Positions 26,679 through 32,087 of a DNA stretch of 64,000 bases are shown here, piece after piece. A program made the translations under genes and the position numbers. A model generated the notes under the pieces. It was not told where the DNA came from. It was given only the letters and a program-made list of their open reading frames with translations, and did no database searches. The stretch comes from Rothia similimucilaginosa (lineage in GTDB: Bacteria > Actinomycetota > Actinomycetes > Actinomycetales > Micrococcaceae). Numbering within the stretch: position 1 is the stretch's first letter; every line of letters starts with the position of its first letter. The stretch spans positions 62,001-126,000 of the forward strand of contig NZ_JAOVAM010000003.1 in the NCBI RefSeq assembly GCF_029850875.1, in the 5' to 3' direction.

Positions 26679-26752
26679 CGGGATGTGGCGCAGCTTGGTA
26701 GCGCGCGTCGTTCGGGACGACGAGGTCGCAGGTTCAAATCCTGTCATCCCGA
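26679..26752 (+). tRNA. tRNA-Pro (anticodon CGG)
   Basis: A complete 74-nt cloverleaf: acceptor CGGGATG/CATCCCG, D arm GCGC/GCGC, anticodon stem CGTCG/CGACG with loop TTCGGGA (anticodon CGG at 26713-26715), T arm GCAGG-TTCAAAT-CCTGT, discriminator A. CCA is not encoded. It reads CCG proline codons. Confidence 0.95.
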
Positions 26753-26757
26753 CAGTT

Positions 26758-29911: not shown

Positions 29912-30095
29912 CTGCGGCGACGCCGGGTTGTGCTTCGTTCCTTCAAACCTTCAAATTCGGGCTGACGAATCGGTTTGAGTGAGAATCTCGCTTACAGTCA
30001 CCGCAACCTTATGTGGGATTGAATTTATAAAACCACACAATACCAGGCAGTTAAAGCCCTGCAAACCAACATGCATCCCACATATATGATCAAAA

Positions 30096-30133
30096 CCCAC
30101 CGCACCCTCTCTTGAGGCTGCGGTGGGCTTTTT
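30096..30133 (+). terminator. Rho-independent terminator downstream of the antiporter gene
   Basis: Stem CCCACCGCA (30096-30104) with TGCGGTGGG (30119-30127), loop of 14 bases with a small inner CCTC/GAGG pairing, then a T5 run (30129-30133). It lies 185 bases after the antiporter stop; the stretch between shows no gene. Confidence 0.8.
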
Positions 30134-30249
30134 GCATCCGAATAACCTTATAAACCGCGGGAAGATGAGAATCTTCCTTAAATTCGGATTTTTTATGCAA
30201 ATATTACAGAACATGACGTGTCTTAGCTTTCTCGACTGACACTTTGTCC

Positions 30250-30280
30250 TATAAAATTGAAAGCAGACAGGGAATTTCCC
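30250..30280 (+). promoter_or_regulatory. Promoter -10 and palindrome starting the long leader
   Basis: A strong -10-like TATAAAAT (30250-30257) with no convincing -35, followed by the 11-bp palindrome GGGAATTTCCC (30270-30280) near the expected transcript start. Transcription from here would give a leader of about 260 nt before the oxidoreductase gene. The palindrome may be an operator or a 5' stabilising hairpin. Confidence 0.45.
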
Positions 30281-30311
30281 TAAAACACACATAAACCAAC
30301 ATACATACACA

Positions 30312-30407
30312 GAGCCGCTTCCGCCCCAGCGGGAGCTGGTGTACCTCCCCATTCACACACGGGAGGCGCCCCTTTCGGGAGTATCCGCGACGATACCCCG
30401 GCGGCTC
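30312..30407 (+). ncRNA. Candidate structured cis-regulatory leader RNA (four-way junction)
   Basis: Read from the sequence: P1 GAGCCGC (30312-30318) pairs GCGGCTC (30401-30407). Inside are P2 CCAGC-[GGGA]-GCTGG (30326-30339) with a GNRA tetraloop, P3 CCTCCC/GGGAGG (30344-30349 with 30361-30366), and P4 CGGG-A-GTATC/GATAC-CCCG (30376-30385 with 30392-30400) with one bulged A. P4 abuts P1 without a gap, allowing stacking. A GGAGGAGG ribosome site follows at 30416-30423, which CCTCCC of P3 could sequester. The gene downstream needs molybdenum cofactor, so a Moco-class riboswitch is one option, but I cannot match the known consensus. Structure hand-folded only. Confidence 0.5.
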
Positions 30408-30428
30408 CCAACCACGGAGGAGGACCAT

Positions 30429-30455
30429 ATGGGTCAGAAAGGTAATTATTTCTAA
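30429..30455 (+). CDS. Eight-codon upstream reading frame (possible leader peptide)
   Basis: ATG at 30429 encodes MGQKGNYF then TAA. It is preceded by the best ribosome site in the area, GGAGGAGG, ending five bases before the ATG. It ends 72 bases before the oxidoreductase ATG. The strong site with correct spacing suggests real translation, perhaps as the regulated output of the preceding RNA structure. Its size alone means it could be chance; there is no known peptide match. Confidence 0.4.
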   Translation: MGQKGNYF

Positions 30456-30527
30456 CCTCACATCTCAAGGCCTCGCACTGAATCCTAACGATTGTCTGCA
30501 CACACAGTCATTTCCGAAGGAAAAATC

Positions 30528-32087
30528 ATGCACCAACTACTCCTCACCGCGAGCACTGGTGGCGTAGAGCTAGACTTCCCGTCATGGCTCCGAATTACGC
30601 ACTTCATCAACTTCATTATGATGGGCTTCCTGATTCGTTCAGGTTGGGAAGTTCTCGCCTCTCACCCCCGTCTGTACTGGAACAACCAATGCACCCCGGG
30701 TTCCGAGTGGCTCAAGTTCACCAAGGACAAGGTTTCGACTGTCCCCGGTGAGTTCACTGCCCGCGACGACCAGCGTCGACTGTCGCCGCTTATCTCCCTA
30801 CCCGGTAACGGCCAGATTGGTCTCGGCCGTGCATGGCACGCTCTTGTAACTTTTATCTGGATTGCTAACGGTCTCGTCTACGTCTCTTTGCTGTTCCTGA
30901 CCGGCCAGTGGCGCCGCATCGTCCCGACCAGCTGGGACATCATCCCGCAGGCGTGGGAATCCATCCAGATTTACGCTGGCTTCCAGATTCCCTCCATTGA
31001 GCATTTCCAGCCGTACGACGCTCTGCAGCAGATTATGTACTTCACCGTGGTGTTCATTGTGGCACCGCTGATGATTGCAACCGGCCCGATTATGAGCCCG
31101 GCATTCTGCGGCCGTTTCCCCGGCTACGTGCGCCTCTTCCGTAACCGCCAGACCGCACGTTCCATCCACTTCCTGGGTATGGCCTTCTACTGCGTATTCA
31201 CTGTTATTCACGTGGCTCTGGTGTTCGTGGTTCACCCCCAGTACAACATCGCCCACATGATGCTGAACAAGCCCTACAACGAGGTGGATGCAGCACAGTT
31301 CGCTCAGGCAGTCACCATGCTCATTGGTGGTATTGTCTTTGCCGTCGCTCTGTGGCTCTTTGCTTCGTACTGGTCCCTGCGCGACCTGCGATTCACCCAG
31401 ACCTTCATTTGGGGTCTGACCCAGCCGATTCGTAACGTCTTGCTGGATCGTATCACCTCCCGTCAGGTGCAGAAGAAGACCTTCACCGAGGCCGATATTT
31501 CGCCCTTCCACTGGGTTAACACTCGCCCGCCGACAGAGCGTGAGAGCACCGAGTGGAACCGCCTGAAGGAGCACGAGTTCGTTGACTACCGCCTGGAGCT
31601 GGGCGGTCTGGTGAAGGAATCCAAGTCCCTGAGCATTGACGACCTCAAGCAGCTGGGCAAGGAAGTTAACATCACCATGCACACCTGTATGCAGGGTTGG
31701 ACCGGTATCGCCAAGTGGGAGGGCGTGCGTCTGCGTGACGTTCTCGCACTTGTTGAGAAGACTGACGAGGCTCGCTACGTTATGGTGACCTCCTTCGGCC
31801 ACGTGGGCCACACCTACGACGGCCGACCGACCGAACCGTACTACGAGTGCCTGGATATCTCCATGGCTATGGAGGATGAGACCATCCTGGCCTGGGGCAT
31901 GAATGATAAGCCTCTGCCGGATGTGTACGGCGGCCCGCTCCGTCTGCGTGCGGACTCCATGCACGGCTACAAGATGGTTAAGTGGGTTCAGAAGATCGAG
32001 TGGATTAAGGATTACCGCGATGTTGGCGATGGCCAGGGCGGTAGCCGCGAGGACTCCGGTCTGCAGCACTTCGACGCACGCGCCTAA
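30528..32087 (+). CDS. Cytochrome b561-molybdopterin oxidoreductase fusion
   Basis: 519 residues. The N-terminal two thirds are a di-heme b561-like membrane domain (helices with WLRITHFINFIMMGFLIRSG, GRAWHALVTFIWIANG, RSIHFLGMAFYCVFTVIHVALV; His residues suit heme ligation). The C-terminal 190 residues are a sulfite-oxidase/YedY-type molybdopterin domain, with the likely Mo ligand Cys in NITMHTCMQGWTGIAKWEGV and VMVTSFGHVG, YECLDISMAM, GMNDKPLPDVYGGPLRL. It may reduce oxidised methionine or another S/N-oxide using quinone electrons. ATG 30528 has CGAAGGAAAAATC upstream. The long leader before it is unusual. Confidence 0.88.
   Translation: MHQLLLTASTGGVELDFPSWLRITHFINFIMMGFLIRSGWEVLASHPRLYWNNQCTPGSEWLKFTKDKVSTVPGEFTARDDQRRLSPLISLPGNGQIGLGRAWHALVTFIWIANGLVYVSLLFLTGQWRRIVPTSWDIIPQAWESIQIYAGFQIPSIEHFQPYDALQQIMYFTVVFIVAPLMIATGPIMSPAFCGRFPGYVRLFRNRQTARSIHFLGMAFYCVFTVIHVALVFVVHPQYNIAHMMLNKPYNEVDAAQFAQAVTMLIGGIVFAVALWLFASYWSLRDLRFTQTFIWGLTQPIRNVLLDRITSRQVQKKTFTEADISPFHWVNTRPPTERESTEWNRLKEHEFVDYRLELGGLVKESKSLSIDDLKQLGKEVNITMHTCMQGWTGIAKWEGVRLRDVLALVEKTDEARYVMVTSFGHVGHTYDGRPTEPYYECLDISMAMEDETILAWGMNDKPLPDVYGGPLRLRADSMHGYKMVKWVQKIEWIKDYRDVGDGQGGSREDSGLQHFDARA

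Follow-up and report, generated by a model that had tools for sequence, protein, structure and literature searches.

An mRNA leader (approximately 30260–30527) lies upstream of a cytochrome b561/molybdopterin-oxidoreductase gene in the window, the 64,000-nucleotide stretch of DNA analysed here, and can fold into a four-way junction followed by a short upstream open reading frame (uORF). The leader is probably real but modest, an orphan example of an already known general type. Our tentative reading, in which we place slightly less than even confidence, is that of an orphan, lineage-restricted structured leader in which an RNA acting only by shape is combined with a uORF, the signal being received at the promoter.

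Organization of the leader and its gene

The features of the region are listed below, in which G-numbers denote searched genomes and L066 denotes Rothia mucilaginosa strain 141_RMUC, whose leader is identical to that of G013.

30237–30249, plus strand: operator-like palindrome TGACA-N3-TGTCA with one mismatch (TGACACTTTGTCC), adjoining the −10 on its upstream side
30250–30257, plus strand: −10-like element TATAAAAT, identical in four of four aligned leaders
30270–30280, plus strand: GGGAATTTCCC, possible 5′-terminal hairpin; GGG and two C residues kept in four of four leaders, centre variable
30282–30309, plus strand: A/C-rich linker, which the minimum-energy fold leaves unpaired in the window and mostly unpaired in L066
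30312–30407, plus strand: four-way junction core, from the minimum-energy fold of the isolated core, pair counts, a retention test and covariance model R1
30312–30316/30403–30407, plus strand: P1, five pairs
30317–30324/30329–30336, plus strand: P2, 8 bp, uninterrupted in four of four sequences
30341–30349/30361–30369, plus strand: P3, with outer GG/CC at 30338–30339/30371–30372, in the register of G014 and L066
30375–30379 and 30381–30385 with 30392–30401, plus strand: P4, A30380 bulged
30416–30423, plus strand: uORF Shine-Dalgarno sequence GGAGGAGG, containing GGAGG
30429–30455, plus strand: uORF of 8 codons, MGQKGNYF*; start site and length kept, peptide variable
30470–30527, plus strand: conserved block before the gene start, in which the window and L066 agree at 56 of 58 columns
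30517–30522, plus strand: the gene's own ribosome site AAGGAA, within the 30470–30527 block
30528–32087, plus strand: oxidoreductase gene, 519 aa; cytochrome b561 domain fused to an MsrP/sulfite-oxidase-like molybdopterin domain

A preliminary description of this DNA had placed the leader before a molybdopterin oxidoreductase that needs molybdenum cofactor (Moco), and a Pfam scan of the 30528–32087 product bore this out with both PF01292 (cytochrome b561) and PF00174 (molybdopterin). The product matched PDB entry 1xdq with an E value of 3.4e-10 and scored 73.6 bits against the NCBIfam MsrP model, below the cut-off of 207. MoaC is encoded in the same Rothia genome, so Moco synthesis is probably possible in the host; the presence of MoaC says nothing on whether the leader senses Moco.

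Protein searches for orthologues covered 35 genus genomes, 245 family genomes and a named genome collection (31 loci), and the gene was found in 7 of the 35 Rothia genomes at E ≤ 1e-40. Orthologues in genomes labelled Actinomyces, Schaalia, Trueperella and Sanguibacter (L068–L072 and L074) are 78–80% identical to the Rothia protein, whereas identity reaches 54% at most among the homologues listed for other genera of the Rothia family. This disparity, which is one of protein sequence, suggests either that the gene has moved among actinobacteria or that those genomes are mislabelled.

Transcription is expected to start near 30260. What had been called a strong −10 is present as TATAAAAT at 30250–30257, but it lacks a consensus −35, since a sigma-70 scan returned no promoter-like site. 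The palindrome GGGAATTTCCC at 30270–30280 is present as claimed. No intrinsic-terminator-like site was found on the plus strand in 30260–30527. An antisense open reading frame of 133 aa (29951–30352, minus strand) covers part of the promoter and leader and is most likely spurious.

Fold of the junction and its conservation

The four-way junction is the minimum-energy fold of the isolated cores (104–107 nt) of all four carriers, namely the window, G015, G014 and L066. The window and G015 cores are identical, which gives three distinct cores among the four, and the most divergent carrier, L066, matches the window at 64 of 104 core columns (62%). P1 as first outlined kept its outer five pairs (30312–30316/30403–30407), but the inner two (30317–30318/30401–30402) are in competition with P2 and absent from L066. 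P2 had been drawn with a GNRA loop; the compensated helix is an 8-bp stem (30317–30324/30329–30336), with CCCA as its loop in the window and CUUG in L066. The GNRA loop intended was presumably that of CCAGC-GGGA-GCTGG, an alternative whose loop would read AGGA in L066. Both P3 with CCTCCC/GGGAGG and a bulged nine-pair P4 abutting P1 are present as proposed, the latter having ten pairs with an outer U-G. A30343 and C30367 form a mismatch in the window and G015, in which the outer P3 pairs shift to 30338–30341/30367–30370 in the minimum-energy fold.

Folding of the 276-nt leader gave z = −4.1, with none of 200 shuffles equally stable. For the isolated cores, z values of −4.1 (window, 1 of 500 shuffles), −5.0 (G014, 0 of 500) and −3.8 (L066, 1 of 500) were obtained, and the whole L066 leader reached only −2.5 (2 of 100 shuffles). 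In absolute energy the core is unexceptional, since 31 of 2558 99-nt segments of the GC-rich window are at least as stable.

In alignment A3, 95.5% of cells pair, compared with 41–53% in slid controls, and three pairs (one in P2 and two in P3) are altered on both sides. A column-shuffle control was weak: of 500 shuffles, 52 reached the double-change count, 88 the pairing percentage and 85 the covariation score, and as many as 411 reached the number of pair types. A retention test used a substitution null, the observed substitutions being re-dealt among the paired positions. From the window to L066, 28 of 31 pairs are kept against a mean of 24.1 expected (P = 0.003), and from G014 to L066, 29 of 33 are kept against 25.4 expected (P = 0.007). 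Of the four helices P4 is the weakest; it contains A-C mismatches, and 89.5% of its cells pair. With gapped columns left out, unpaired core positions differ between the window and L066 at 14 of 28 sites and paired positions at 12 of 62; the P2 loop is CCCA in the window but CUUG in L066, and the P4 loop is CGCGAC and ACCC, respectively. G014 and G015 share 95 and 98% identity with the window, which leaves in essence a single split as the basis for covariation. The alignment of homologous leaders advocated earlier has yielded three double changes and pair retention above the null (P = 0.003–0.007), but from one informative divergence and with a weak shuffle control.

Competing folds in longer transcripts

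In transcripts that extend up to the uORF start, the predicted probability of P1 is 0.05 in the window, 0.06 in G015, 0.17 in G014 and 0.78 in L066. With the gene start included, the corresponding values are 0.33, 0.10, 0.53 and about 0.9. P2 is stable in all folds, with probabilities of 0.63–1.0. The structured leader with a four-way junction put forward in the preliminary description can form, and relatives display some compensatory change, but longer folds compete with it.

The rival fold of the window and G015 is one in which the 5′ strand of P3 covers GGAGG, with a probability of 0.82–0.89 in transcripts up to the uORF and, at full length, of 0.54–0.55 in the window and 0.78–0.79 in G015. 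The full-length G014 transcript has its uORF ribosome site paired with CUCCUC from the opening codons of the gene (0.83–0.85), and in L066 the best partners of GGAGG are yet other segments. Because the partners differ in G014 and L066, the suggestion that CCTCCC could pair with GGAGG fits two of the four sequences: the pairing is predicted in the window and G015 (0.54–0.89 over five positions), but not as the best one in the other two. A CCTCCC/GGAGG switch was set aside on this ground. Nor was a conserved expression platform found, the covering of GGAGG by P3 being confined to two of four sequences and the leader having no plus-strand terminator-like site.

The uORF and the block preceding the gene

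GGAGG had been described as a later ribosome site. It belongs to the 8-codon uORF, whose ATG at 30429 is preceded by GGAGGAGG, and the gene at 30528 has its own AAGGAA. In L066 the uORF follows the same ribosome site and reads MSERVYSP*, so that, compared with MGQKGNYF*, one of eight residues is kept and seven differ. The uORF stretches of the window and L066 are identical at 26 of 46 positions. All 13 Shine-Dalgarno and start columns are identical, compared with 13 of 33 other columns (hypergeometric 1e-4, for a motif picked after inspection). The distance from the uORF stop to the gene start is 72 nt. A 6-codon uORF following GGAG is also present in G006.

The 30470–30527 block is 97% identical between the window and L066, compared with 57–79% for the remaining leader stretches, and parts of it (GCACACACAGTCATT) recur in G006. 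Judged by this identity, the block may be under more constraint than the junction. Conserved regulatory codons together with a terminator or antiterminator, the marks of a leader-peptide attenuator, were not found in the leader.

Distribution of the leader

A DNA search combined with covariance model R1 identified the leader in 4 of 35 genus genomes and in four of the seven that bear the gene: G000 (137.8 bits), G013 (98.1 bits), G014 (140.8 bits) and G015 (137.8 bits). Each carrier has one strong R1 match, always upstream of the cytochrome b561/molybdopterin-oxidoreductase gene. At E ≤ 1 the DNA search matched 24 of the 35 genomes and R1 matched 20, the best values beyond the four carriers being 0.002 over 34 bases and 0.017, respectively. 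A multi-copy or mobile element was rejected, as there is one DNA match in the window's own genome at E ≤ 0.001.

No R1 match was obtained with filters off at E ≤ 10 at the orthologue leaders of G006, R. aeria (L073/L121) and the Rothia metagenome-assembled genome L067, which is apparently the same as G033/L122; their folding z values are −0.7, −2.0 and −1.1, respectively. As these genomes have the gene without a leader match, the junction is not essential to the gene.

The wider R1 search took in 35 genus, 295 family and 396 order genomes, in overlapping samples and with strict filters. Thirteen non-carriers among the 295 family genomes matched at E ≤ 0.05 (18–28 bits) and one among the 396 order genomes at E ≤ 0.001, the best non-carrier scores being 27.6 bits (G231, family) and 23.9 bits (G387, order). 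The G231 match spans the end of one open reading frame and runs into the next, which we take to be trpC and trpB; P4 is not kept, and the match was regarded as chance. A 16.5-bit match approximately 4 kb from moaC in the window's own genome lies inside an open reading frame and was likewise regarded as chance. Recurrence before several genes or in many lineages was not seen, the strong matches being limited to 4 of 35 genus genomes and to this one gene. Literature searches did not point to an earlier description of this Rothia leader.

Comparison with the Moco riboswitch

The preliminary description could not fit the Moco riboswitch consensus and proposed a check against Rfam, in particular RF01055. 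No Rfam family reaches its gathering score over the leader. At E ≤ 5 there are seven sub-threshold matches to other families (E 1.5–4.3), none of them RF01055. The RF01055 model (gathering cut-off 36 bits) gave no match at E ≤ 5 in 30000–30800 and none in the window's own genome at E ≤ 1. Across the genus it exceeded the cut-off in 0 of 35 genomes, three having sub-threshold matches at E ≤ 1. The same model scored the E. coli moaA leader, used as a positive control, at 103.6 bits. A Moco riboswitch was rejected on these grounds.

In the available text of one account of the Moco RNA, conservation is described as peaking around the central junction, with a GNRA tetraloop (almost always GAAA) on P4 and its receptor in P2 (PMC2408646). 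Helix numbers in that RNA and in the Rothia junction need not correspond. In the Rothia leader no junction helix ends in a GNRA tetraloop (P4 has CGCGAC/ACCC, P2 has CCCA/CUUG, and the P3 loop is longer). There is no receptor bulge in P2, an uninterrupted 8-bp helix in four of four sequences, and conservation does not peak around the junction, where junction and loop positions differ at 14 of 28 sites compared with 12 of 62 paired ones. Like RF01055, the leader is a multi-helix junction RNA upstream of a molybdenum-cofactor-linked gene; unlike it, the leader has no match to the model, no conserved GNRA loop and no conserved junction or loops, and is associated with one gene in one small clade. 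The suggestion that the leader is a divergent form of the Moco riboswitch, or a ligand-binding RNA of a new class, is therefore not upheld, given the absence of an RF01055 match and of its hallmarks, the variable loops, the restriction to one gene in 4 of 35 genomes and the presence of the promoter palindrome beside several Rothia heme genes.

A promoter palindrome shared with heme genes

TGACA-N3-TGTCA matches once in the window, where chance would give 1.54 matches, and the window palindrome is therefore not significant alone. Across the 35 Rothia genomes, by contrast with 16 sites for the reversed control pattern, 128 exact sites are present. In the window's own genome there are three exact sites (control, 0) and 23 with up to one mismatch (control, 16). 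At one mismatch or fewer, the palindrome occurs within 330 nt of the start in all seven Rothia orthologue leaders. It occurs in 9 of 31 leaders of the named collection, comprising three from Rothia and 6 of 28 others. Sites in the window, L129, L130 and L172–L188 are often flanked by T- and A-runs.

Two of the exact sites in the window's own genome are arranged in tandem (L129, 5593–5631) between heme oxygenase and HtaA genes; the third (L130) is near open reading frames without a heme-related family. Further sites were inspected in 17 regions of G006, G013 and G001, of which a subset of 20 neighbouring open reading frames was scanned with Pfam. Tandem sites precede heme oxygenase in all three genomes, with HtaA on the other side confirmed in G006 and G013. 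A site adjoins hemE in G006 and G013, in the former of which hemA is divergent, and sites in G006 and G001 have COX2 (cytochrome oxidase subunit II) beside them. G013 also has sites next to ferritin and a periplasmic binding protein, and other sites are near ornithine cyclodeaminase and TilS (both G006) and a PTS protein and a sulfate-symporter-type gene (both G001). Of the remaining sites, L174 lies within a longer hairpin and L184 is beside a probably spurious open reading frame.

Four of the 20 scanned open reading frames had no Pfam match. Two of these, found in G006 and G001, encode one small membrane protein of 115 aa (L172:1618–1965 and L188:1623–1970), which in both Rothia species immediately follows the palindrome and is possibly heme-related.

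As the palindrome is enriched and stands beside several heme genes, heme-linked promoter control looks likelier than Moco sensing. The palindrome of HrtR of Lactococcus is reportedly similar to TGACA-N3-TGTCA. The parts of PMC7858072 and PMC8044140 available do not give the HrtR palindrome. According to the accessible text of PMC7337898, HrrA of Corynebacterium glutamicum targets heme oxygenase, hemE, hemA, cytochrome oxidase subunit II and htaD, a gene set similar to that beside the Rothia palindrome, with an HtaA domain in Rothia and htaD in the C. glutamicum HrrSA heme regulon. The HrrA motif, as reported in the available portion of PMC12327846, is CMAMCDAAAGKTKGA, which is not TGACA-N3-TGTCA, and this difference implies a different regulator.

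Discussion

The structure, the conservation of the uORF start, the narrow distribution and the operator enrichment are supported by computation. A mechanism can be proposed in which the leader RNA would act through its shape, without binding a ligand. The 5′ hairpin and the junction would shield the 5′ end and make the uORF ribosome site less accessible. The act of translating the uORF, whatever the peptide, would keep ribosomes on the leader and guard the 72-nt stretch before the gene against decay or early termination. With ribosomes kept on the leader and that stretch protected, the leader is proposed to set the amount of enzyme. The on/off signal would more likely be given at the promoter, where a regulator of the TGACA-N3-TGTCA heme-gene group would act. 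The start of transcription, the translation of the uORF, the effect on expression and the identity of the signal are what we infer here. In favour of this scheme we count the same junction in four carriers, the retention of pairs, the uORF start columns and a palindrome that also occurs beside heme genes; against it we count the availability of four sequences only, the weak shuffle control, the competing folds, the one-mismatch palindrome and the 23 versus 16 sites.

Neutral GC-rich hairpins, whose fold is kept through common descent only, would account for the 31 of 2558 window segments that are at least as stable, the single informative divergence, the weak shuffle control (52, 88 and 85 of 500) and the improbability of P1 up to the uORF in three of four sequences. 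The prediction of the same junction from 62%-identical cores, the retention of pairs (P = 0.003–0.007) and the slower change of helices than of loops argue against neutrality, which we regard as rather unlikely. It is because P1 probabilities are low in the longer folds, G014 included, that we call the modelled junction quite probably real and no more, keep the shape-and-uORF scheme just short of even confidence and grant neutrality its small share. An autoregulatory or global RNA-binding protein that recognizes the folded leader or the 30470–30527 block is an unlikely account, to which the 97% identity of the 58-nt block (57–79% for other stretches) and the recurrence of GCACACACAGTCATT in G006 lend some weight, but the block may be merely an efficient translation start region. 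It is improbable that the leader is a very narrow new riboswitch with Moco, heme, a sulfur compound or a nitrogen oxide as the ligand that toggles P3 against the uORF ribosome site. Such an RNA would fit a multi-helix junction ahead of a single cofactor-enzyme gene and the two competing folds of the window and G015, one of which covers the uORF GGAGG (0.54–0.89). Unpaired core positions, however, vary more (14 of 28) than paired ones (12 of 62), the best partners of GGAGG differ in G014 and L066, and the toggled ribosome site is that of the uORF and not of the gene. Moreover, the 35 genus genomes show no further strong site, and the best non-carriers reach 27.6 bits (295 family genomes) and 23.9 bits (396 order genomes).

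A related and quite improbable variant is a young RNA sensor of the R. mucilaginosa clade, whose junction would bind heme, Moco or an RNA-binding protein and move P3 from junction closure to masking of the uORF ribosome site or back, in addition to a heme-responsive promoter. Control by ribosome stalling at specific uORF codons, as in a leader-peptide attenuator, would suit a small uORF with a strong ribosome site 72 nt from the gene. We give it very little credence, as the peptide differs (MGQKGNYF versus MSERVYSP) and has no run of one amino acid, and no intrinsic-terminator-like site is present on the plus strand between the uORF and the gene. The cloverleaf-like outline and the −10-like element upstream might evoke a stand-alone small RNA or a tRNA-like element. 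Both were rejected and are barely credible: the plus strand of 30260–30527 has no intrinsic-terminator-like site, and ARAGORN finds only tRNA-Pro, at 26679–26753, and nothing at the leader.

If the shape-and-uORF scheme is correct, a complex RNA fold would have arisen in one small bacterial clade before one gene, while the promoter palindrome is retained by the other Rothia orthologues, one of which also has a uORF. Elements of so narrow a distribution easily escape comparative riboswitch surveys. The palindrome points to a Rothia heme-gene group with a site unlike the corynebacterial HrrA motif and allows a direct test of heme regulation.

Two known systems share elements of this arrangement. 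In the available text of PMC4833913, the stop-to-start distance of Actinobacteria leader genes is reported to peak at 10–11 bp, which is ascribed to reinitiation, and attenuation is said to need at least 40 bp. The Rothia leader resembles the reinitiation leader genes of that account in having a short leader ORF before a structural gene in an actinobacterium, but differs in its distance of 72 nt. The odc1 motif and the uORFC candidates, as presented in the accessible part of PMC8632094, likewise combine RNA structure with a very short uORF before one gene. Whereas odc1 is represented there by 272 examples and encodes a conserved peptide of 11 aa, the Rothia leader occurs in four genomes, with a variable peptide and a 72-nt gap.
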